Shown here in pieces: positions 18,701 through 55,571 of a DNA stretch of 59,208 nucleotides (its first letter is position 1; every line of letters starts with the position of its first letter). Origin of the DNA: a virus; the IMG/VR virus record IMGVR_UViG_3300028563_000024, positions 1-59,208 of that record. One strand, written 5' to 3'. Below the pieces are notes generated by a model, which made no database searches, was not told where the DNA came from, and worked only from the letters and a program-made list of their open reading frames with translations. Position numbers and translations under genes: made by a program.

Positions 18701-20391
18701 ACATCATTCAGTGTGCTCAGGTTCTGCCTGCCCGGCCGTCCCAGCTTGTCTTTCAGATAAGCCCGAACGCCGGTCTTCATGGCATCAATTTCAGCGGGGC
18801 CGAAGTCCTTTGCCGCTGCCCGCGCAACGAACTCGTCAGTATCAACGCCTCGCGTCAACAGGTCGCGGCCGTATTCCAAAGCCGCCTTGAGCTTGGCGGG
18901 CCCGGCGTAGACGTTACGGGCGTTCTTCCAGACGTTCTGAACAAGCGGGTCGGGGTGGGCGTCAATTGCCGTAATCAATTCGCCGCGAAGTGCCTTAAGA
19001 GCAGAACCAGTGGTGTTATCACCGTCTCTGAACGCCTTACTGATCTTGCTGTCTAGCGAGCGCTTGACAAGGTCCCAGGTCCGGGCTGTTGGATACTTGC
19101 CCGGAACGCCAGCCATGAACTGCTCTTGCTGCCAAGGCACACCTGAGATACCAGCCAACTCCTTCGCTTTACTGAAAGCTCCGGCCGACTTCAGCCTTGG
19201 GATAAGCTCGACAAGCTCAGGCGTTGGCGTAATCTGCGTCTCGCGGAAGGCACGGTAAGCCGGATCAGAGGCCTTCTTCTGATCGCGAGAAATCTGCTTG
19301 GCAATACTGTAGGTGTTGCTGTCCCTGCCGAAAATCTGGTCAAACACCGTGCCAATGCGTTGTGGCGCTTCAGAGGCCCGACCTCGGAAGGCGTTCATCA
19401 GCTCGGTACGCCCCAGGCCAGGTGAGGACGTAATCCCACGAGCGTAGAAGGTGGGGCTGTCACCAATCTCTGAGAGGAATTGGTGGGGCGACATTTCCTC
19501 AAGGCGTTGAGCCAGTGTGTGCGGCGTCAGACCTTCGCCTTCAAAGCTGGCGTGAATACGCTGAATGGCCTCAGGCGAAACACCCTCAAGGGGGCTAGTC
19601 CCTGCCGCACCAGCCGCACGGCGAGACGCCAAAGCCTCTAAGGCGTGCTCAGGAGACGACACGTCAGGAACGTGGGAGATATTGGGCGAGAGCAGCCTTG
19701 CACCGTTGTCACGTGGAACCCCGATGGGCTCGCTCGCTGGGGCGGTCGGGAGCGCCTCAGGGACCGTCGGCGGCTTAGCCGACATCATGTCAACGGTACG
19801 GGTCGGGGTCTCCGGCCCTACAAGGCCCACAGGCGGCTTTCTAAGCCCCGTCAAGCGGCCTAATTTGCCAATAGCCCCCGGCGCAGCCAACGAGGCGATG
19901 CCCATACCAGCGGCCTCCTCAGCCGTGGCAGCGGGGGCCATGAGATCGAGACCGCGAGGGCCAAGGTAGCCGCCTTCCGTAGTTGTAGGGATGGTCGTTT
20001 CCTGCTTAACGCCAAGCTGCTTTCCGAGAAGCCGTCCGGTTGACTCGATATCGCCGACCAAGCCTCCCGATAAGGTAGCGGGTAAGCCCTTGACCAAGCC
20101 TTTTCCGACATTGGTCCAGTCGCGCTGAAGCTCGCCCTCCTTAGGGCGTGCGCCAGACAGGTCAGGACCCGGAACCGCCAACTCAGCAGGCTGCTCAGGA
20201 GAGCCAGAACGAATAGCCTGACGGAAAGCCCGCTGGCGCTCATTGAAGCGCGTTGGAGTTGGCGCTTCATCAGGGTGCATAACGCTAGCCGCCTTAACCG
20301 GAGCGGCAGACTGCGCCCAAGGAGCATCTGGCAGATCAGCGGTCTGCATTTCTTGCGTTGCCCAAGGAGCGTCTGGAAGCTGGTCGTCCAT
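12793..20391 (-). CDS. Giant polyvalent ejection-type protein, 2532 residues
   Basis: One uninterrupted frame. LPDAPWA occurs twice near the N-terminus. About residue 760 there is an HEMTEWALM segment with YEEAHKRATAAE, possibly metal-binding. Near 1090, YHGTSKPGF and GLGIHLAKDPE look like an ADP-ribosyltransferase of the polyvalent type. About 1920-2080 (NHWDEPNVLGHLR, EELQSDMHQLGRKNGY, AVSWTPGEQQAARY) is a region common in such proteins. Near 2180, VYRTGAQRDIGRGIFFG is a second ART-like segment. About 2330-2475 (GDHVDVYVGP) fits the inorganic-pyrophosphatase-like domain. The last 40 residues hold four Cys. Phages use such proteins to inject enzymes with their DNA; the catalytic activities are inferred. 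Confidence 0.8.
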   Translation of the reverse strand: MDDQLPDAPWATQEMQTADLPDAPWAQSAAPVKAASVMHPDEAPTPTRFNERQRAFRQAIRSGSPEQPAELAVPGPDLSGARPKEGELQRDWTNVGKGLVKGLPATLSGGLVGDIESTGRLLGKQLGVKQETTIPTTTEGGYLGPRGLDLMAPAATAEEAAGMGIASLAAPGAIGKLGRLTGLRKPPVGLVGPETPTRTVDMMSAKPPTVPEALPTAPASEPIGVPRDNGARLLSPNISHVPDVSSPEHALEALASRRAAGAAGTSPLEGVSPEAIQRIHASFEGEGLTPHTLAQRLEEMSPHQFLSEIGDSPTFYARGITSSPGLGRTELMNAFRGRASEAPQRIGTVFDQIFGRDSNTYSIAKQISRDQKKASDPAYRAFRETQITPTPELVELIPRLKSAGAFSKAKELAGISGVPWQQEQFMAGVPGKYPTARTWDLVKRSLDSKISKAFRDGDNTTGSALKALRGELITAIDAHPDPLVQNVWKNARNVYAGPAKLKAALEYGRDLLTRGVDTDEFVARAAAKDFGPAEIDAMKTGVRAYLKDKLGRPGRQNLSTLNDVLAENNLQKLRALLGDEEAAKLERAIRHEYEMHFSPQNLGNSLTAEKTIAQDIWAAKPSGLEKVITTGVGLIKHPGKTLTGSALEAQTARTMNKRQLAADQIRRDAARIYSLQGAERDAVAQWILEHGADYTPPAPKRASGGRVAVNTRAPVIRKYDVPYLAGASDNGQTVYLDRRVPPRIKLGKAFIDPAVPLRIHEMTEWALMTKHKLSYEEAHKRATAAERNWVESHGHSWALYEETMDGLLSHIEHEHPKKPPPDLYLKPYPHDKQKLLEKNRAAGGAVWEEGQNLDVGGVADQGFDPQAWWKGQSPEALNSQVPNDYSRSDRERTNAAQDLSWATQPSELEQSPNEAAANRIRRSVRHTTELPAERAMPLGYLYDHYAKGIDEVADFNRKKLLEKGEDPNALNIARQAAQTLGANLTGVAAEPGMPGVERQPTWPERMVVSGATLPSDVITGKYNVKPTEPGMWSDEDENRRLAGDAEIFERVQDMAGMAGVPAVGMKPNEATLTSGLNRRPEGTPTQAYHGTSKPGFERFETPDAGQYMPDRGLGIHLAKDPEIANTFAKDSGGVYPVDMPPEEKFYPIKQDHLPYIEDKTSPKYARNVISDQSAMEHEIYRVAYQQDPEMFARHLERRWNMPREEAVKAAQDITSGKPYSNELMSPRSTREPIVGLDDYIERDGVVKPWNEGDRAKAIAVFQKHLQDQGYVGVKYINTSPMETANAKDPTSYVLFNPREHARSRFTGALMSDSGEVGAPLSALAKSQAERPTAVAEKPFAMQATVAPNNLPAPYKPAELGGDIQNFLRLSQGYEKKYGQDWVTKLEPTELATLKAEPALQKALANIEAAKGAGVLDKMLEQPLTRRDAFRTVGAIGSAVANAGRLGTALKMLEVPKVDLVGPAYQKIGGLKDQFKALQDEVMSSYNRTEWKLREARDAEIKTVRDKYGALYEQLPRGRDYDHYAETRKLNHQLQAEIAKVEEKHAPAIGKIQQEMMEKNRQLKTDFEKDITGARENLNLPKLNEQQQKVLDYVVKPGRRSFTDFVDGTLQQNPYELSKAADILKDLAKHPEMEKYHKDDVGYLVAKMSDAEKAQIAEHIKPVLLQDPHISMGDVRTIVKAFPSLKGFQAFSNTGKIAGPLSALANQHFYSAVEKAIAGAPQQKMHASQWMGWLKNQPGIKAEELNWLGLGDKADIGEGLVTKQQMLDRVRDKGVQVGEVEKKGGPRSHADANEAAYAEVKDDFYSQYPKENNNAFQNWMESPEGQAAFDRALAETTNSPRYSDYQLPGGENYREMLLTLPEKPRKTLSTAEADELRALLNKDDRGLAGTGPKLSRAEEDRLTALQTKVKELRSQIGQAEPFRHNHWDEPNVLGHLRMNDREIPGVGKALHGEELQSDMHQLGRKNGYQQDIPQRTFEARRDPKGDGWTVFDSDGNQASGAALGKADAEEIARQFTSQQRKKTDGVPDAPFKTSWPDLLLKRLIAKAAKEDYAAVSWTPGEQQAARYDLSKQVEKIQAIKNADGTYQLAAEKKGGQGKVALGASIPEAKLADHVGKDLAEKIVRDANPFLDEAEKPEGWQPGMSLFADSSKVGAPLSALIGEKYATGTHTVSEPLSLKVYRTGAQRDIGRGIFFGDSPESVKPYSSLHNNAPINEYTVSPKKTLITESPFALHKELFNGKSFQDAVWAEDKKSGFKSSIEASRKVEAKMAAALKRKGYDAFVYTKPPAPAKHEISILNPKAISKVEETPNRAHGGRVNADNINHNPSEAQKSSGAYAKDHINIHGLNITIENAKGSTRSGVGADGSRWETKLPSAYGYFKRSEGADGDHVDVYVGPHLKSNFVWIVDQVDPDTKRFDETKTLLGFGSKAQALKTYIAAFSDGKGKDRIGAVHALTVPALKQWLEHGDTKSPYKPPVIKKLSHASVDYTPKALNPKNRCGVCVKFIPASLGGPDCVFVAKPINPQGWCSRFRRV

Positions 20392-41471: not shown

Positions 41472-42398
41472 CTACGAAGTTGGCGCTGAGCCCCATAAAG
41501 CCCTGGGATCGTTATAATTGTAGGAGTACCTCTCCCATGCCTTAACCAACAGGTTATCTGTCGTGAAGTCCACCTGCATATCAATCTCGAACGGCTCACG
41601 CTCAAGATACAGCAGGCCCGGCTGGTCGGTCTTGATGTACCACGGATAAGGCGAAGTGAAGAACACGTCCTTGACGTATTCAGTCACGCCACCGGCCACC
41701 GTGGGGATCACGTTGGGGTCGTTCATCGCGGTGCCAGGGCGCAGCTCAGCGCGCAGCAGTCGTATGGCGACAGGCTCGTTGTTCGGATGGATCACGAGCG
41801 TCTTGCCCGTGGCCATCATACGCAAGCCCGCGTTGTCGTAGAAGCCCGTCTGAATAGAGATCATTCCGTTCAGCAGGGATGACTCATTCAGGTCCACATC
41901 CACGGTCGGGCGGTTGGCCCAAGTGGTGGGGCCTGAACCACCAGCCGGGAGCGGGTGCGCGGTACTCAAGAGAGCCACGCCGTCACCACCGATGGTGGAA
42001 TCATAGGTCGTAGAGTTGTTGAACACAGCCGCCGCGTAGATCTCCTTGGTCTGCGCAAACGAACGCTGGAGACCAAGGTTGGACGGGCGGAACTGCGCCT
42101 TGTACAGGTTGTCGGCAATGGTGTTGCGCGTGATAGCGTAACCCAGGCCGATGCCGGTGTGGAGCTGGTTGTAAACGAACGCCTCACCAGAGTTGTTGTC
42201 GAAGGCGGTCTGCCCGCCGTCTGTCTTGAGCTGGGCGAGCGGGAGAAACCGCATGCTGGCGGTGCGCTCCTGTGCCATCTCAGACTTACCTTGGTCGAAG
42301 AGCTTCGGCCAGATAGCGGGCCACTGCTTGTATTCGCCCGTGACGCCCCGAAGGCCAGGGAGGAGGAGGTCACGAATGGCTGCGACGTTGATAGCCAT
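41472..42398 (-). CDS. Major capsid protein, 308 residues
   Basis: RDLLLPGLRGVTGEYKQWP at the N-terminus, MRFLPLAQLKTDGG, then GLGYAITRNTIADNLYKAQF are features I associate with major capsid proteins of this phage type. Length, lack of signals and position beside another abundant-looking structural gene fit. An HK97-type fold is expected but not shown. A truncated mimic of two of these motifs is encoded at 52427-52750. Confidence 0.75.
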   Translation of the reverse strand: MAINVAAIRDLLLPGLRGVTGEYKQWPAIWPKLFDQGKSEMAQERTASMRFLPLAQLKTDGGQTAFDNNSGEAFVYNQLHTGIGLGYAITRNTIADNLYKAQFRPSNLGLQRSFAQTKEIYAAAVFNNSTTYDSTIGGDGVALLSTAHPLPAGGSGPTTWANRPTVDVDLNESSLLNGMISIQTGFYDNAGLRMMATGKTLVIHPNNEPVAIRLLRAELRPGTAMNDPNVIPTVAGGVTEYVKDVFFTSPYPWYIKTDQPGLLYLEREPFEIDMQVDFTTDNLLVKAWERYSYNYNDPRALWGSAPTS

Positions 42399-45424: not shown

Positions 45425-45590
45425 AATCAGCATCCTTTGTTTCAGGCTTTACGTCGTAAGCTTTGTGACCGCCTGGCCTATTAAAGAGAGCAGCGCCAAA
45501 TGCTAGAGCACGACGCGCTTCTTGCTTTGGATCGCCAATAACAAGCCTTGCCCACGCTAGTTCTGCTTCAGATAAGTCAGTCAACGCCAT
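45405..45590 (-). CDS. Small unknown protein, 61 residues
   Basis: The N-terminal half is a clear helix pair (LTDLSEAELAWARLVIGD) and the C-terminal end is polar (ETKDADYADWYD). The start ATG 45590 overlaps the scaffold stop, and its end overlaps the next gene start by 20 bases. No family was recognised. Confidence 0.55.
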   Translation of the reverse strand: MALTDLSEAELAWARLVIGDPKQEARRALAFGAALFNRPGGHKAYDVKPETKDADYADWYD

Positions 45591-46699
45591 TAGTGCGTCA
45601 TCCGACCCAGCTTACCCTCAGCCTCCAGCTCGACAAGGTTCCGAGCATACTGCGCAAAGGCTTGCTGTGGCGTGAGCTGGGGAAAGGACATCTTGGCAGC
45701 GTCCTGCTGATCCTTGGTCAAGGACACAGTGCGGGTCGTACGCGGAACGCCCGTTGCAGAGGGCGGGTCGCGGGTGACGGGAGCGGACGGCTGAGCCAGC
45801 CGCTTCGGCGCGGGCTTCGGCTTCGGGGCTACTTCCTCTTCGCCAGCCTCAACCGTCTCAGCAGCAAGCGAGGTTGGCTGGCGATAACCCGCCGTCTCCT
45901 CAATAATGCGGAAGTAATCCGGCGAGTTGGGCTCAGCGCCTTCAGCCAGAGCAGCGTAATGCCCCTTCATCATCTTGGCATTGGATGTGGTATTACCGCC
46001 TACATTGGCGGGGACACAGTCAGGATGCGCCCTCAGCCAGGCCTGAGCAGCTGGAGCAAAGCTGGAGACATACTGCTCAAAGGGCGTGAGATGAGTTTGA
46101 GGCGCTTCAACGCGGCCCTCGGTGGTTGGCTTACGGGCACCGCTTTCATACGCTGCCTTGGCCGTCTCCAGGCGATCTAGAGCCGATGCAGCCTTGGAGA
46201 CCTTGGTCTGGGCTTGAGCGGCCTTCTTGAACTCACCAGCCTCCAAGGCGCGTTCGAGTTCTTCCTCAGCCGAGGCCAGCTCACGGGTGGCGTTATCAAC
46301 ACCGGTGGTGATAAGGGCAAGCTCGGTGTTCTCAGCGGACTCGCGGGCCTGCTTTGCCTCCTGCTCGCGCTGCTGAGCGAGTTGGGTAGCGTTGTCAGCG
46401 CGGCGGCGCTCAGCAAGGGCTGTAGCCTCAGCAGCGGAGAGCGAGGCCTTCTGATTCTCGACAGTCTTCTGGAGCGCGACGAGGACTTCATCCGCCTGCT
46501 TAGCGGGAGCCTGCTCACTCAACCTGACGCGGGGAAGAACCTTCGGCTTAGGCTCTGGCTTGGCGGGTTCGCCATCTTCGCCGAGCTCTACGTCGGCAGC
46601 AGCTGCGATTTCTGCATCTGTGGTTGCCTGGTCTTTCGGAAGCTCAACCGTGACGACGCTGTCGTCCGTAACTTCGACGGTTGCGTTAGGGCCTGCCAT
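45590..46699 (-). CDS. Scaffolding-type protein, 369 residues
   Basis: An acidic N-terminus, a Pro/Lys linker, a long uninterrupted coiled coil (residues about 70-180, for example SAAEATALAERRRADNATQL) and a small basic C-terminal segment (FAQYARNLVELEAEGKLG) are the usual features of a head scaffolding protein. AGGAGAGCAATTAA precedes ATG 46699. It lies upstream of the capsid genes, as expected. Scaffolds guide capsid assembly and leave before maturation. Confidence 0.75.
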   Translation of the reverse strand: MAGPNATVEVTDDSVVTVELPKDQATTDAEIAAAADVELGEDGEPAKPEPKPKVLPRVRLSEQAPAKQADEVLVALQKTVENQKASLSAAEATALAERRRADNATQLAQQREQEAKQARESAENTELALITTGVDNATRELASAEEELERALEAGEFKKAAQAQTKVSKAASALDRLETAKAAYESGARKPTTEGRVEAPQTHLTPFEQYVSSFAPAAQAWLRAHPDCVPANVGGNTTSNAKMMKGHYAALAEGAEPNSPDYFRIIEETAGYRQPTSLAAETVEAGEEEVAPKPKPAPKRLAQPSAPVTRDPPSATGVPRTTRTVSLTKDQQDAAKMSFPQLTPQQAFAQYARNLVELEAEGKLGRMTH

Positions 46700-47237
46700 T
46701 TAATTGCTCTCCTGATTTAGCCAATCTTACCTGGGAATAGCATAAACGTAAATGCGTTCGGCAATACGGATGGTCGTCAAGGCGCTTATTGCTGCAAAAC
46801 TTAAAATCAGGCGTACCGACATCGCCAATTGGGTAGCGGCAATCGTCTACTTTCAAGAGCAGAACCTTGGGCAATCTGGCTTTTCCTAGAGCATCAACAA
46901 ATTCAGCCTGGTCAGCAGGAGCGTTGAATGCAAGTGCCTTAGACCTTGGGAATTCTGGATCATCTGGAATATCTGTCGTAGGGCTAAGGCGAACTCTGGG
47001 GAGAGATGAGGTTGGGCGAAGCTCCGCCTTGCGCAACACAGCGACAACTTCCGGCTTAGGCTTGACCTGGACATTGACTGGGCGATCTCTGTCTGAAAGG
47101 CCTTCGCGGTGCAACCGGCCAATGATGGCGTTGCGCGTGCGGCCTAGCTTCATGCCAATCGTCTTAGGGCTGTAGCCCTTGGACCAGAGATCAAACACGA
47201 ATTTGAACTCGCTATCCGTCCACGATTTAGAAGGCAT
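46686..47237 (-). CDS. GcrA family cell-cycle regulator homologue, 183 residues
   Basis: The N-terminal KSWTDSEFKFVFDLWSKG and TRNAIIGRLHREGL match the GcrA DNA-binding helix-turn-helix. The C-terminal DDCRYPIGDVGTPDF then FCSNK and YCRTH match the Cys-containing end of the family. In Caulobacter, GcrA works with the primary sigma factor at methylated promoters. A phage copy could redirect host transcription or activate late genes. ATG 47237 shares an A with the previous stop (TAATG). This gene is the main clue to an alphaproteobacterial host. Confidence 0.88.
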   Translation of the reverse strand: MPSKSWTDSEFKFVFDLWSKGYSPKTIGMKLGRTRNAIIGRLHREGLSDRDRPVNVQVKPKPEVVAVLRKAELRPTSSLPRVRLSPTTDIPDDPEFPRSKALAFNAPADQAEFVDALGKARLPKVLLLKVDDCRYPIGDVGTPDFKFCSNKRLDDHPYCRTHLRLCYSQVRLAKSGEQLNGRP

Positions 47238-47494
47238 TACGAAGAAGCCTTTCGCAGTTTTTGCAAAGCAGCCCAATCGAACTTGCTGGGAAGTGTTAGC
47301 ATAGACTCATGCGCCCAAATCTGTTTGTAGTCACAGTGCAGACAGATCCAGCCGTCCTTAGTCGCAACCAAAGACTTATCACCAGCGTGATCGTTCCCGC
47401 ACGTAAATGAATGAACCGCATCTGCCTGCTGCCAACGGTTAAGCGCGTCAACTTGCGCCACGCTCCATGGAGCGACAACCCAACCGTTTGTCAA
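47237..47494 (-). CDS. Small zinc-ribbon-like protein, 85 residues
   Basis: HSFTCGNDHAGD and WICLHCDYKQ give Cys/His and C-x2-C groups that could bind zinc. It begins WVVAPWSVAQVDALNRWQ, a pattern I associate with small unknown proteins of alphaproteobacterial phages. The TTG start overlaps the GroES-like stop (TTGA). It is coupled to the GcrA gene downstream. Confidence 0.6.
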   Translation of the reverse strand: MTNGWVVAPWSVAQVDALNRWQQADAVHSFTCGNDHAGDKSLVATKDGWICLHCDYKQIWAHESMLTLPSKFDWAALQKLRKASS

Positions 47495-50780: not shown

Positions 50781-50969
50781 TTAGGAGTTTACTGTTTGCA
50801 CCGGCACATAGTCGCCAAGGTGTGAGATAGCGAGAGAGAAATCGCCTTGCGTAATCTTACGCCGCTCGCCGTCCAGGACAAGCCATAGTGACTGAACGCC
50901 GTCGTCGCTGATGGGGCCAATCTGAATGGAGAAGTAGCCACGTACTTCTGATACTGCGTCCTTAGACAT
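50781..50969 (-). CDS. Small protein with duplicated gene start, 62 residues
   Basis: ATG 50969 gives MSKDAVSEVRGYFSIQIGP, then SDDGVQSLWLVLDGERRK and a helical end. The first 21 residues are shared with the gene at 51168-51578 through a 63-base repeat. It is probably the original form, since the body reads as one domain. ATG follows the previous stop by one base. No family was recognised. Confidence 0.6.
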   Translation of the reverse strand: MSKDAVSEVRGYFSIQIGPISDDGVQSLWLVLDGERRKITQGDFSLAISHLGDYVPVQTVNS

Positions 50970-50970
50970 C
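50908..50970. repeat. 63-base dispersed direct repeat, copy 1
   Basis: Matches 51517-51579 over 63 bases with two mismatches. It covers the start codon and the first 20 codons of the 50781-50969 gene. The other copy forms the start of a different gene. Confidence 0.9.
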
Positions 50971-51171
50971 CTAGTGTTTTCTCTTATCAACGAGAACCTT
51001 GAGTTTCTCGAAGTCCTCAGCATTCATAAGCACCAATTTACCAGCAGAGTTCGGAGTAGTTTCGAGTGGTCCTGCATAAACAATGTTGTCATCTTCAAGC
51101 ATAACGCAGGTACCAACACAAACTCCAGGGCAAGGAGCCGCGTTCATCAGGTAGTTTTCGCCACCGCTCAT
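50971..51171 (-). CDS. Small Cys-containing protein, 66 residues
   Basis: ATG 51171 overlaps the previous stop (ATGA). CPGVCVGTC near residue 14 gives three closely spaced cysteines, and the rest is MLEDDNIVYAGPLETTP plus a C-terminal helix. It may bind a metal. No family was recognised. Confidence 0.55.
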   Translation of the reverse strand: MSGGENYLMNAAPCPGVCVGTCVMLEDDNIVYAGPLETTPNSAGKLVLMNAEDFEKLKVLVDKRKH

Positions 51172-51578
51172 GCCCAGAACCGCCGCGTCACAGTCGGGTT
51201 GCGGATAAGGGCAGCAGCGGCTCCAGCTGCAACAGCAAGCGGGAGCGGAAGAGCTGGTGCTGGGCTCAAAGCGGAAAGCTCCGTCGCAATTCTGGATTCA
51301 GCCTCTGCAATAACAGCTTCCCACGAGACAGTCCTGAAGTCAGCAGAGTACCTGATATACCACTTACGGCGCTGCCCAAAAGCGTCGGTAAAGCCAATCT
51401 GTGGATCATTAGACACAAGCCGAGTAGTCTGTGTCTCAGAATCGTACTCTACAAAGACTTGAGGTTCACTCACGGTTTCAATCTGCCTTCGTGTGCTTGA
51501 ACTTACCCTTGATGTTCTGATGGGGCCAGTCTGAATGGAGAAGTAGCCGCGTACTTCTGATACTGCGTCCTTAGACAT
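51168..51578 (-). CDS. Chimeric protein with borrowed start, 136 residues
   Basis: Codons 1-21 come from the 63-base repeat shared with the 50781-50969 gene. The next 11 codons derive from a 33-base copy of the KTSC gene's 3' end, read in a different frame. The remainder (PQVFVEYDSETQTTRLVSND, WYIRYSADFRTVSWEAVIAE) looks like an ordinary conserved domain, followed by an Ala/Pro-rich hydrophobic end. The last codons overlap the next start. Function unknown. Confidence 0.6.
   Translation of the reverse strand: MSKDAVSEVRGYFSIQTGPIRTSRVSSSTRRQIETVSEPQVFVEYDSETQTTRLVSNDPQIGFTDAFGQRRKWYIRYSADFRTVSWEAVIAEAESRIATELSALSPAPALPLPLAVAAGAAAALIRNPTVTRRFWA
51485..51517. repeat. 33-base dispersed repeat, copy 1 (inside the chimeric gene)
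   Basis: Identical over 33 bases to 52219-52251, which encodes the end of the KTSC protein. Here it is read in another frame. It abuts the 63-base repeat at 51517 with one shared base. Confidence 0.9.
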
Positions 51579-51579
51579 C
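51517..51579. repeat. 63-base dispersed direct repeat, copy 2
   Basis: Second copy of the repeat at 50908-50970, with two mismatches. It provides the start codon and first 20 codons of the chimeric gene at 51168-51578. Confidence 0.9.
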
Positions 51580-51984
51580 AGAACTTCCCGGATTAAGGAA
51601 CAGAGCACGGTTGATTGGATCACGCCATTCAGTTCCGACGTGGTAATGCGTACCCGTTGTGAACGCAGCGCCGCAAACCGCGCACCCTGGAATTGGCAGA
51701 GCGCCTAGCTGAGGCTCATCCTGACGCCAATTGCCAAGTTGCATCCTAACATCTTGGTTCTGACCACAATGCACGGTCTCAACAAAATCGCAGATTGGAT
51801 GTCCGTTCTCACACGTAACAGTTTCGCCCTTACAAGCATAAACTGGAAGGTCTGGCCAACGGCGAACCGGAGCTTCTTCGCTTTCGCTAAGTTCAACAAG
51901 AGATGCCTTGACAGAAGAAACTCCTACAGCGCCAATGAACGGAAGCGCTGATATCCAAGACAGAAGCTTGCGGCGGCTAACCAT
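51571..51984 (-). CDS. Tat-type signal protein with Cys pairs, 137 residues
   Basis: MVSRRKLLSWISALP contains a twin-arginine motif (SRRKLL, residues 3-8) followed by a hydrophobic stretch and VKA cleavage-like site, which suggests export in folded form. Cys/His groups CENGHPICDF and CAVCGAAF, with HYHVGTEW, could bind a metal. An exported metal protein in a phage late region is unusual. The start overlaps the (frameshifted) end of the upstream gene region. Confidence 0.6.
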   Translation of the reverse strand: MVSRRKLLSWISALPFIGAVGVSSVKASLVELSESEEAPVRRWPDLPVYACKGETVTCENGHPICDFVETVHCGQNQDVRMQLGNWRQDEPQLGALPIPGCAVCGAAFTTGTHYHVGTEWRDPINRALFLNPGSSDV

Positions 51985-52014: not shown

Positions 52015-52212
52015 TTAGCTGGCCGCGCTCATTCGAAACACGCCGCGCTCATTCGAAACACGCATGTATTCTACCGGGTCAATCATGTTCTCACGCAGCC
52101 ATGCTATCCGCTCAGCGGCTTTAAGCGAGAGCGGATCACCAGCTTTACGCAAATCATAAACCAAATCTTGGTCTCGAAAGAAATGCGAAGGATCGTTCTT
52201 ATCGGTAAGCAC
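52015..52212 (-). CDS. Small protein with frameshifted C-terminus, 65 residues
   Basis: GTG 52212 overlaps the KTSC stop (TAGTG). The product is helical (HFFRDQDLVYDLRKAGD, AAERIAWLRENMIDPVEYM) up to RVSNERG. There a 20-base tandem duplication shifts the frame, giving VFRMSAAS and a stop. Removing one copy restores QLMQHLCKGTTPYG and a stop overlapping the ATG at 51984. The present reading frame is therefore a recent mutant form. Confidence 0.6.
   Translation of the reverse strand: MLTDKNDPSHFFRDQDLVYDLRKAGDPLSLKAAERIAWLRENMIDPVEYMRVSNERGVFRMSAAS
52022..52061. repeat. 20-base perfect tandem duplication
   Basis: GCCGCGCTCATTCGAAACAC occurs twice in direct succession (52022-52041 and 52042-52061). 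Because 20 is not a multiple of three, it shifts the frame of the gene at 52015-52212. Confidence 0.95.
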
Positions 52213-52430
52213 TAGTCCGCCTTCGTGTGCTTGAACTTACCCTTGATGTTCGCATGGTAATGCTTACCCTTGGACTCAGCCGCCATAAAGGCTGAATGGT
52301 CCTCTGGTGAGCACTCATCATGGTGATAGACTGCACCGCCCTTGAACTCTACGGAGAGGCGCTTAGCCTCTGGATCATAGCCCACAGACACGATATTGGA
52401 ACTGTCAACAGGAGTGCGGTTGTGGGTCAA
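52212..52430 (-). CDS. KTSC domain protein, 72 residues
   Basis: VDSSNIVSVGYDPEAKRLSV, GGAVYHHDECS and AAESKGKHYHANIKGKF follow the KTSC domain, a small domain found alone in phages and at the end of lysyl-tRNA synthetases in some bacteria. Its function is unclear. The TTG start overlaps the previous stop (TTGA) and has an excellent GAAGGAG seven bases upstream. Both its 5' and 3' ends have been copied into neighbouring genes. Confidence 0.8.
   Translation of the reverse strand: MTHNRTPVDSSNIVSVGYDPEAKRLSVEFKGGAVYHHDECSPEDHSAFMAAESKGKHYHANIKGKFKHTKAD
52219..52251. repeat. 33-base dispersed repeat, copy 2 (KTSC gene 3' end)
   Basis: Source-like copy of the repeat at 51485-51517. Here it encodes the last residues of the KTSC protein (NIKGKFKHTKA) in the correct frame. 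Confidence 0.9.
52398..52429. repeat. 32-base direct repeat, copy 1 (KTSC gene start)
   Basis: Identical over 32 bases to 52718-52749. It encodes THNRTPVDSS after the TTG start of the KTSC gene. Confidence 0.95.
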
Positions 52431-52750
52431 GCGGTAGCTCCTTCTGGAATAGACTCTTGCGAGAGCGCCAAGGCCAGATTGTTCAGAGAACTAACAAATT
52501 GCTCTTTGTAAAGGTTGTCAAGGATCGATTCTCTTGACAGTGCAAAGCCCAGTTCCCAATTCTTGGACTTACTGACGCCTGTTACGATGAGCCCATCGGT
52601 TGTGTAGTCGATACTTATGCTGAATTCTAAGTCTGGAAACTTTCCAGCTTTCGCCCATAAGGCAGGCAGTAGCAAATCGCGGACGCTGGCCAATGATGGT
52701 CCTGGGCTTGCATTAACGGAACTGTCAACAGGAGTGCGGTTGTGGGTCAT
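52427..52750 (-). CDS. Chimera of KTSC-gene start and capsid-like segments, 107 residues
   Basis: Residues 1-11 (MTHNRTPVDSS) come from the 32-base repeat of the KTSC gene. The rest resembles two parts of this phage's major capsid protein. SVRDLLLPALWAKAGKF matches RDLLLPGLRGVTGEY, and LGFALSRESILDNLYKEQF matches LGYAITRNTIADNLYKAQF, with the capsid segment between them shortened by about 28 residues. ATGA/TTGA couplings on both sides suggest it is translated. It may be a remnant, or a small capsid-interacting protein. Confidence 0.6.
   Translation of the reverse strand: MTHNRTPVDSSVNASPGPSLASVRDLLLPALWAKAGKFPDLEFSISIDYTTDGLIVTGVSKSKNWELGFALSRESILDNLYKEQFVSSLNNLALALSQESIPEGATA
52718..52749. 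repeat. 32-base direct repeat, copy 2 (chimera start)
   Basis: Exact copy of 52398-52429, here directly behind an ATG. It supplies the first codons of the capsid-like chimera. Confidence 0.95.
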
Positions 52751-52959
52751 GACACCAATTTATCCGCGTGGATCCTAGCAAAATATGGAACTTTTGTACC
52801 GACCCTAAGCTCCATCGTTACTCCAACAGGCTTATCCTTAGCAATCCCAATAGGCCACGCTTTCGACAACACCCTAGCAACTGACTCTGCAACTTCCGTT
52901 TCTGAACGAGGGTGCTCTGAGACAACTTGAATATCATCTAACTGAACATTGACACTCAC
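52747..52959 (-). CDS. Small unknown protein, 70 residues
   Basis: GTG 52959 overlaps the portal stop (GTGA). The product starts MSVNVQLDDIQVVS and alternates strands and one helix (SVARVLSKAWPIGIAK), like a small ferredoxin-like fold. Its stop overlaps the ATG of the capsid-like chimera (ATGA). No family was recognised. Confidence 0.6.
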   Translation of the reverse strand: MSVNVQLDDIQVVSEHPRSETEVAESVARVLSKAWPIGIAKDKPVGVTMELRVGTKVPYFARIHADKLVS

Positions 52960-55571
52960 TTCGCAACTCCCTTAGCTTTAGTCTTAGCAGCCTGAGCCGC
53001 CAATGCCTTCTGATGCGAACGGTCCAGCAACCCCTGGATCAACTCATGCCTTTGGGCTAAGCCCTGACCCATCATATCGTGCTGCCGATCCATGACGCCT
53101 TGCTGCGCCTCGTGGTTCTGGTCCAGGTTCTGCCCAACCATGTCGTGATATCGGTCAACCCCGCTTTGCTGGGCCTCATGCTGCTGGCCAAATGCCTGGG
53201 TCGTCAGGTCATGCTGCCTATCGAGAACGCCTTGTTGAGCCTCATGCTGCTGATCCAGACCCTGAGTAACCATACTGTGCTGGCGGTCCTCAGCAGCCTT
53301 ACGGAAGTTCGCATGATGCCCCATATGAGCTAAGGCAACCTTGCTCTGTCTGTCCGAAGTCTTGTGACCGTGCTCCATCTGAAGCTTCTTAGCAGCCATT
53401 TCCTGGTCTGATTTGTGGATGATCATCTCGCGCGCTACGCCCAGCGAGGCGATCTTCTCGCGGGAATCCAGCTCCTTCTGCTTGGACTGGATCGTGACGC
53501 CCAAGTTAGCCGCCTTGATCTTGGCCTCTTCAGCCTTGGTCTGAGCATCCTGCAACCGAGCCTGAGCCGCAATGATGGTGGCCTGAGCCGCTAAGGCCTC
53601 TGGTGCGGGGGCAGGCGGCGGCGCATTCGGATCAGCCTTCTTGAAGAAGCTGTCAGTGTCGTCATAGCCCATGGTCGTAATGGCGCGGCTATCAACCTTG
53701 TCCATATCCAGGTTCTGGTTGGTCTGAGCCATCTGCCTGAGTGCCACGATCTTCATGTAGCGCTCAGTTTGCGAGGACGTGTTGGGGTCAGCTCTAGGCA
53801 CCAGCTCGCAATCTGCCAGGGCCGTCAGGAAGAGATCACGATGGCGCTTCTCAGCTGCCTTTGTCTCATCCTCTTGCTGCTGCACAGGCGTACCAGCCTC
53901 AGCGATCAGCATCTTGAGCACCTGAGACTTCTTGTTGTGTCGCCAGAGCGCCTCAGGGTCTTCCATCAGCAGCGACTTGAGCATATCAAACTCTTGGCTC
54001 TGAGCCTGATGAAGCCGCTTGTGGACAGCGGACATGAGCTTAGTCGCCTGTTCGATAAGGGCGAGTGTGGTGCCAACTGGGGCGTCCTGCTTACCCTCAC
54101 CCACCTGCGTCTCGGCTGTGCCGCCAACCCGCTGGGCTGTGGTGACCACATTCTCGATCAACTGGATGAACACCGCCGAAGGGTCTTTGTAAGGCAACGG
54201 CATGACAGAGGCACGGATATCATTACCCACTGTGTCGATCGGCATACCACCACCAGGCGGAATGCGGAACTGGTTGGTCATCTGCCGAGCGAGCTGCTTC
54301 AGGTAGAGGAAGCCGGGGAAGTTGGCGAACATGCCTGCATCGAGCATCAAGCGCCAGGCCGCAGTGACAGCCTTGGTGGCATTGCCGAGGATGTTGAGCA
54401 GACCAATGCCGTAGAAGCCTAGGCCAGGGATGAAGCAGTAGGCAATGATCCTGTTACGCGGCATGCAGAATTCGTCATCTTCCTCCCAATTCCTTCTTAT
54501 CTCCAGTACGCGTCTGGCTTCCTTGTCGATGACGACCTTGAAGGGCAATGGTAAGCCTGTGAGCTCGCCGTCCATTTCATGCTCGAAACCGGGGACCTCG
54601 ATCTCGCAGTAGCACTCGTAGAGCTCACGATCCTGGTCGGAGTACTCAACAGTAGTGGCTGGGGCAATGCCTTGCACCTGGTCGATCTTGGCATCAACCG
54701 GGTTCTTGATTGGGTTAAGGCTAGGTAGAGGTAGGTCAATATTGCGGTAAGCGCCCAGCAGCTGCATGCGCTTGAGCGTGGAAGGCTTCATCATGATGCG
54801 ATGGGTGACGCGCCCAGCACCATCAATGTTGGTGGCTGAGTTGGAGACGATCAAGTCCTTCGCATCAATGGAGGCAATGACCGGGCGGCGCTTGATGGGG
54901 TCGTGGTAACCCTTCTTGAAGCTGATGCCGCTGAAGCCAAGCAAGAGCAGCATTCTGTCAGTGTCTGGGTAGTACTCCTTAGCCGTCTTGGTCAGGTAAT
55001 GATTCATGTCCTTTTCAAGGGCATTGGCCAGCTTGTCTGCTAAGGCGTTGCCTTCACCATCGTTGCGAACCTTGACAGGGCCATCTGATGGGAGAAGTTC
55101 GCCTAGGGCATTGGCCTGGAAGCGCAGGACAGCTTCAAGGAGGAGAGGATGATCGACTGTGGATGTGCCCTCAGCAGGCGTGGCGCCTGAGGCTGCGGCA
55201 CCGCGTGGGGTCTTGGCTTCTAAGCCTAGGAGGGAGATGCCTGAGGCTGCATTCTCCAGCCATTGCGCGCGGGAGCTTTCATCCTGCTCGATGCCCATGA
55301 GCAGGCGCTCAGAAATAGCACTGAGCTCAGCTTCGGTCAGGTGCTCGGCAAGGTTGTCGCCGAAGTCACTGTCCTTCTTGGGTTCTTGTGGCGGTCCGAA
55401 GCTGACCTGGACTATGCCATCTGGCAGCTCGACCTGAGTGGTGCCTGTATCAGCATCGAAAGCTGGAACAGGCTTGCCATCCATTGTGACAATGACATTC
55501 GCCCCAAGCTCAGGTTGAGGAGCTGGGGTGCGGTAGGTCTGCTCGATGTCTAGGGGATAGACGTTGGCCAT
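52956..55571 (-). CDS. Portal protein with His/Gln-rich C-terminal repeats, 871 residues
   Basis: Residues about 80-600 match large podovirus-type portal proteins: LTEAELSAISERLL, SSRAQWLENAASGI, GFSGISFKKGYHDP and VGEGKQDAPVGTTLALIEQA. The portal is the 12-fold ring for DNA entry. After residue 650 a helical Gln/Ala/Lys region follows, then four 22-residue repeats starting DRQH and containing QQHEAQQ, ending near residue 850. The repeats are an unusual tail for a portal. ATG 55571 shares an A with the previous stop. Confidence 0.88.
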   Translation of the reverse strand: MANVYPLDIEQTYRTPAPQPELGANVIVTMDGKPVPAFDADTGTTQVELPDGIVQVSFGPPQEPKKDSDFGDNLAEHLTEAELSAISERLLMGIEQDESSRAQWLENAASGISLLGLEAKTPRGAAASGATPAEGTSTVDHPLLLEAVLRFQANALGELLPSDGPVKVRNDGEGNALADKLANALEKDMNHYLTKTAKEYYPDTDRMLLLLGFSGISFKKGYHDPIKRRPVIASIDAKDLIVSNSATNIDGAGRVTHRIMMKPSTLKRMQLLGAYRNIDLPLPSLNPIKNPVDAKIDQVQGIAPATTVEYSDQDRELYECYCEIEVPGFEHEMDGELTGLPLPFKVVIDKEARRVLEIRRNWEEDDEFCMPRNRIIAYCFIPGLGFYGIGLLNILGNATKAVTAAWRLMLDAGMFANFPGFLYLKQLARQMTNQFRIPPGGGMPIDTVGNDIRASVMPLPYKDPSAVFIQLIENVVTTAQRVGGTAETQVGEGKQDAPVGTTLALIEQATKLMSAVHKRLHQAQSQEFDMLKSLLMEDPEALWRHNKKSQVLKMLIAEAGTPVQQQEDETKAAEKRHRDLFLTALADCELVPRADPNTSSQTERYMKIVALRQMAQTNQNLDMDKVDSRAITTMGYDDTDSFFKKADPNAPPPAPAPEALAAQATIIAAQARLQDAQTKAEEAKIKAANLGVTIQSKQKELDSREKIASLGVAREMIIHKSDQEMAAKKLQMEHGHKTSDRQSKVALAHMGHHANFRKAAEDRQHSMVTQGLDQQHEAQQGVLDRQHDLTTQAFGQQHEAQQSGVDRYHDMVGQNLDQNHEAQQGVMDRQHDMMGQGLAQRHELIQGLLDRSHQKALAAQAAKTKAKGVAK

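Follow-up and report, generated by a model that had tools for sequence, protein, structure and literature searches.

The small gene and its neighborhood

Within the window, the whole 59,208-nt stretch of viral DNA that was analyzed (IMG/VR record IMGVR_UViG_3300028563_000024), a first-pass annotation made from the letters alone had drawn attention to a small gene close to the portal gene. We confirmed this open reading frame (ORF), which has an ATG start, lies on the minus strand and contains the capsid-like peptides that had been quoted from it (Table 1). The proposed coupling to the genes on both sides is borne out by two 4-nt overlaps, one of the ATG with the stop codon of the preceding 70-aa ORF (52747–52750) and one of the TGA with the TTG start of the KTSC-domain gene (52427–52430); the AAGGAG site for the latter gene falls within the 3′-terminal part of the small gene. 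No family match was found for the 70-aa ORF in PHROGs, Pfam or NCBIfam. Another IMG/VR contig of this phage (L001; 99.98% DNA identity over 4,932 bp) contains the identical small ORF, and the window copy of the gene was found only in this phage and this near-identical contig. The window also encodes a homolog of the cell-cycle regulator GcrA (46686–47276, minus strand; PF07750, E = 2.9e-25), which suggests an alphaproteobacterial host.

The first 11 residues of the small protein had been described as copied from the KTSC gene, and they indeed correspond to an exact 32-bp repeat of the start of that gene. The KTSC gene is the likely donor, as its PF13619 match begins at residue 9. The likeness to KTSC proteins is limited to these first residues and the identical 32 bp of DNA: the rest of the small protein is unrelated, and a Pfam search found no PF13619 match in it, whereas the neighboring gene does match. 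Two further gene ends are duplicated nearby. A 63-nt gene start is common to an 80-aa and a 151-aa ORF (97%; 50908–50970 and 51517–51579), and a 42-nt stretch at the end of the KTSC gene recurs in another frame inside the 151-aa ORF (51482–51523 and 52216–52257). With several duplicated gene ends (32, 42, and 63 bp), the region at 51–53 kb looks assembled from copied gene ends.

Table 1. Coordinates of the genes, repeats and capsid-like segments in the window (MCP, major capsid protein; H, helix; E, strand).
Feature	Position	Strand	Remarks
MCP gene	41472..42398	minus	308 aa; matches annotated as major capsid proteins, at most 60.7% identity
MCP residues 265–287	41538..41606	minus	counterpart of segment 2; blastp and profile matches
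MCP residues 84–117	42048..42149	minus	counterpart of segment 3; profile matches
MCP residues 5–21	42336..42386	minus	counterpart of segment 1; profile matches
Putative capsid scaffold	45590..46699	minus	369 aa; name inferred from composition and position
KTSC-domain gene	52212..52430	minus	72 aa, TTG start; PF13619, E = 1.6e-19
32-bp direct repeat, copy at KTSC gene start	52398..52429	minus	exact repeat
Small capsid-related protein gene	52427..52750	minus	107 aa, ATG start
Segment 3 of small protein	52457..52558	minus	residues 65–98, strand E65-72 and helices; like MCP 84–117
Segment 2 of small protein	52571..52630	minus	residues 41–60, forming strands E41-48 and E53-60; resembles the C-terminal hairpin of the MCP, about 265–290
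Segment 1 of small protein	52649..52696	minus	residues 19–34, VRDLLLPAL; like MCP 5–21; first model helix H20-37
32-bp direct repeat, copy at small gene start	52718..52749	minus	exact repeat
70-aa ORF	52747..52959	minus	between portal gene and small gene; ATGA overlap with small gene
Portal protein gene	52956..55571	minus	871 aa; phrog_1216 portal, E = 1.5e-18

Relation to the major capsid protein

In a single blastp comparison the small protein matched the MCP of its own phage over 31 aa (17/31 identical, E = 4e-7), and the two formed the second-strongest pair when the 381 ORFs of the window were compared all against all. The motif RDLLLPAL, taken alone, gives a weak local match to the MCP. 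In a phmmer search with the window protein, covering 13,881 ORFs drawn from 175 sequences, only MCPs and members of the small family described below were found at E < 0.1. In these single-sequence searches more distant MCPs reached 7e-9 and the phage's own MCP 5e-6, and the DNA likeness between the small gene and the phage's own MCP gene is confined to one 23-bp stretch (82.6%, E = 0.007). As the distant MCPs score better and the DNA likeness is slight, the copying was not recent, and the view of the small protein as a recently copied mimic of the phage's own capsid protein has to be given up.

For a more sensitive comparison we used a family profile of six small members that included no MCP. 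It matched MCPs at E-values of 8e-13 to 1e-8 (roughly 1e-12 to 1e-8), apart from a single outlier at 2e-4; the best ORF other than the MCPs followed only at E = 0.067. The first-pass annotation had let its claim of kinship hang on a profile comparison; a leave-one-out profile of the five other members, without the window protein, found all clade MCPs at E of about 4e-11 and recovered the window protein itself at 5e-16, and hhalign aligned family and MCP with 96% probability (E = 1.4e-9). Subgroup B of the family, used alone, matched the MCP weakly (E = 0.03). No match to the small protein was found in PHROGs, Pfam or NCBIfam, in the PDB by sequence, or among annotated phages by tblastn. The relation to the MCP is firm and the small ORF is capsid-derived; we consider it very probably a miniaturized, permuted piece of the MCP.

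Order of the capsid segments and predicted structures

Two capsid parts in their original order had been recognized at first. A third, the segment of residues 41–60 that resembles the C-terminal hairpin of the MCP, had been missed. Since it precedes the LGFALSR segment, the parts stand in permuted order: the small protein runs from the MCP N-terminus to the C-terminal hairpin and then to MCP residues 84–117, which comprise the strand that follows the E-loop and the beginning of the spine helix. The leave-one-out profile lands on the same three parts of the MCP (5–21, 260–289, and 86–106). In the six-member profile, positions 44–80 fall on MCP residues of about 84–117 and positions 22–44 on about 264–290, and the N-terminal part gives a weak match on residues 3–22. 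Across 86 records, almost all MCPs gave a match of their own in the C-terminal segment. One relative, L101_168, matches MCP residues 84–127 and 269–285, and a third stretch of it (ALRPGTADSDVN) resembles A-domain sequence of the MCP with a score that alone is not significant. An MCP truncated in order was considered as a model and rejected, since the C-terminal segment comes before the middle one.

The structure prediction that had been recommended gave a confident alpha-beta-beta-beta-alpha fold with AlphaFold2 (mean pLDDT 84, core blocks 91–95), predicted for the window member only and composed of H20-37, E41-48, E53-60, E65-72, H73-77, and H81-97. The model of the MCP is poor (pLDDT 49) and shows as counterparts of these elements H5-16, E79-89, H91-95, E271-276, and E283-293; despite the low quality it matches the HK97-fold capsids of phiXacJX1, D3, HK97, and Mu. 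With the small protein, Foldseek found no significant match in the PDB or BFVD, but as this search depends on sequence order, a permuted match is not expected to be seen.

The small family has in common with MCPs of the HK97 fold ("Johnson fold") the motifs RDLLLPGL, NLLV, LGxAITR, and DNLYKxQF and, after permutation, the order of the secondary-structure elements. Its domain counts about 80 residues against about 308 in the MCP. The A-domain and most of the E-loop are missing and the full set of MCP domains (N-arm, E-loop, P-domain, A-domain) is not present, and no shell is expected from the domain alone. A natural permutation of HK97-fold elements is found in the MCP of BPP-1 (PMC3863775), at a permutation point that differs from that of the small family. 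Judged from sequence and model together, the small protein may most simply be read as a condensed, permuted minimal piece of an HK97-fold P-domain. The earlier description as a truncated capsid mimic thus gives way to that of a permuted and condensed domain, one of a family found across the clade.

A clade-restricted multi-copy family

The permuted domain of about 80 residues was found in seven of about 15 distinct clade phages examined, with one to about seven copies each; most clade records are fragments, and absence from the remaining phages is no proof. Locus L099, with a portal protein 64% identical to that of the window, encodes two tandem homologs (98 and 135 aa) right after the portal gene, and L101 and L039 contain several more homologs of the small protein. 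Members in five phage genomes were added when entire records were searched with profiles; one of these genomes is that of G016, the phage to which L101 belongs, whose domain copies number about seven and form two clusters. In the window, L099 and L101, members directly follow the portal gene; in other genomes they are sited elsewhere, and they are absent or unrecognizable in many genomes that have both MCP and portal genes.

The members are strongly diverged: the window protein is 16–34% identical to the others, and subgroup B has lost RDLLLP. No significant PHROGs or Pfam match was obtained for the family members tested. In an outgroup of about 40 phages with an MCP identity of roughly 60% or less, only the MCP was matched and no fragments were found. 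Searches of IMG/VR with three other family members returned only their own contigs, which indicates that the members diverge too fast for such a pattern search. The family is clade-restricted, multi-copy, fast-diversifying and without prior annotation, and a permuted multi-copy family of this kind appears to be new. For one pair of paralogs in G016 (114 codons, 83% identical) dN/dS is about 0.2, with 11, 10, and 35 changes at the three codon positions.

Four members, L099 (135 aa), L101 (115 aa), L237 (about 150 aa), and L238 (about 114 aa), carry RR leaders that look Tat-like on inspection and by a simple pattern match, and the window protein and the 98-aa protein of L099 have no leader. As the four would be exported, the domain is probably put to more than one use, and these signals argue that their bearers do something other than capsid assembly. 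Across the clade, Tat-like RR leaders precede quite different bodies in about 20 ORFs, mini-capsid domains among them; they were seen at 51571–51984 in the window and at L099, L101, L237, and L238.

Other fragments of capsid and scaffold genes

We compared the MCP with other genes of the clade using 37 core families (at least 150 aa and at least four genomes) built from 16 clade records, against which 1,316 other small ORFs were searched singly. The MCP was the most-sampled family, with seven ORFs of which six are independent (the window protein counted), covering the N-terminus and residues 47–69, 84–127, and 101–136. Other core families were sampled less: the portal was not sampled at all, and most of the remaining families either gave no ORF or gave HNH-type genes, split genes or tile edges. 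This control weakens a generic model in which any gene is sampled. The numbers from such single-sequence searches are small, so that they suggest but do not prove a preference for parts involved in capsid assembly.

Three genomes (G001, G006, and G014) have MCP-patch ORFs of other kinds only. The 111-aa ORF of G006 is a plain joint of MCP residues 275–304 and 109–137, and the MCP-patch ORFs of all three genomes have a hydrophobic tail in common that also ends the 151-aa ORF of the window. This C-terminal module, of the form PHIWVPK followed by AVAAGAAAALIRNPxVTRRFWSGW, occurs at 51168–51623 in the window and at L253 (2961–3233), L277 (14025–14270), and L282 (9168–9503), in small ORFs that are otherwise different and of which three have different MCP patches in front. 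At L281, a 114-aa ORF (18973–19317, minus strand) starts with an E-loop patch of the MCP (residues 47–69) and, with 75% DNA identity over 61 bp to the MCP gene of its own phage, is apparently a more recent copy. Two paralogous proteins of 99 and 90 aa in L101 (7631–7930 and 8550–8822), ending in ARFIPLKELE and MRFLPLKDVS, resemble by eye the MCP sequence MRFLPLAQLK and are possibly another MCP-derived small family.

The putative scaffold of the window has no family match. Its C-terminal part of about 45 aa recurs in two small ORFs of relatives (E = 6e-10 and 6e-7), located at L281 (16118–16564, minus strand) and L302 (16700–17299); the one in L281 lies directly downstream of the scaffold gene and carries the fragment behind a hydrophobic stretch.

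Discussion

The explanation that we favor, with somewhat better than even confidence, is that the small protein is a permuted MCP piece of a clade-specific family; that such a piece would still bind MCP or scaffold is a more tentative part of it. Duplication and deletion presumably gave rise to the family from an MCP, and a recent copy of the phage's own gene is not its source. The domain joins the N-terminal helix, the C-terminal hairpin of the P-domain, and the strand behind the E-loop together with the beginning of the spine helix. In the window, the copied KTSC gene start precedes the domain, and translational coupling links the gene to its neighbors. Such a P-domain piece could occupy MCP–MCP or MCP–scaffold contacts, which would slow, tune or poison capsid assembly. 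Related co-infecting phages would be the most plausible target of poisoning, and the multi-copy, diverse and accessory nature of the family would suit action against such competitors. An action on capsid assembly is our leading guess on function, offered tentatively and with less than even confidence; the Tat-like signals of several members speak against it, as they do not fit cytoplasmic action. More speculative still, and rather doubtful, is the wider proposal that these phages maintain a quickly changing set of small proteins derived from their own capsid-assembly parts (permuted P-domain pieces, other MCP patches, and the C-terminal end of the scaffold), which would bind to and derail the capsid assembly of related phages in the same cell.

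Known systems provide partial parallels. Ccm of SaPIbov5 is a capsid protein homolog that redirects the capsid assembly of the helper and is reported to be located in the pentameric capsomers of the satellite's procapsid (PMC8569155). The small family resembles it in being accessory and of capsid-protein origin, and may likewise act on capsid assembly. Ccm, however, is a near full-length capsid homolog, whereas the window protein has 107 aa and three condensed segments, and the small family is phage-encoded, with several paralogs in some genomes and no satellite. Tab, the tail assembly blocker of a Pseudomonas prophage (PMC10884400), shares with our proposal the idea of a phage-encoded block on the virion assembly of competitors; no sequence similarity is claimed, and Tab acts on tail assembly. 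We found no description in the literature of a phage lineage with multi-copy permuted mini-capsid domains and other capsid or scaffold fragments, nor of a truncated MCP inhibitor or MCP-fragment genes.

Several other readings have to be weighed against binding to MCP or scaffold. The domain may derive from the MCP and now serve roles unrelated to capsids, for instance in exported or membrane-associated proteins that interact with the host; this is possible if on balance unlikely. The Tat-like leaders of the four members, the strong divergence with loss of RDLLLP in subgroup B and the several copies per genome are consistent with such exaptation, but the window protein and the 98-aa protein of L099 have no leader, and other small ORFs sample the MCP in several places as well as the scaffold C-terminus, so that capsid parts themselves seem to be the useful thing. 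That members follow closely on the portal gene in the window, L099 and L101 would suit a minor structural protein of the virion, such as a P-domain-like piece at the portal vertex packing on MCP or portal. We hold this to be improbable, because in many clade genomes with MCP and portal genes no member is recognizable and in others members are sited elsewhere. MCP-like pieces could also act as decoys that occupy an MCP-detecting defense sensor without activating it. The MCP is known to set off bacterial immunity and is detected, for instance, by the defense sensor CapRel (PMC9712102), and fast diversification, multiple copies and an accessory position fit an arms race; yet no such sensor is known for the host, fragments might equally activate a sensor, and exported members would not meet cytoplasmic sensors, which leaves the decoy with little probability.

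That the small gene is a relic, as the first-pass annotation had also allowed, or more generally non-functional debris of recombination among short repeats, would be in line with the duplicated gene ends at 51–53 kb and with the plain joint seen in G006. It is disfavored by the intact and coupled ORF, the confident fold, the recurrence of the family in seven phages and the dN/dS of the one paralog pair, and we regard debris as quite improbable. Chance resemblance is more improbable by far. Each motif is indeed short, and RDLLLPAL alone is weak, but the profile, the leave-one-out and the whole-ORF-set controls contradict it, with many orders of magnitude between the MCPs and the next non-MCP ORF.

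If the permuted MCP pieces do act on assembly, they would represent a class of competition or regulation proteins that is invisible to present annotation (PHROG, Pfam, NCBIfam). Even if they do not, the family is a clear case of new small genes born by the scrambling of a conserved structural gene.
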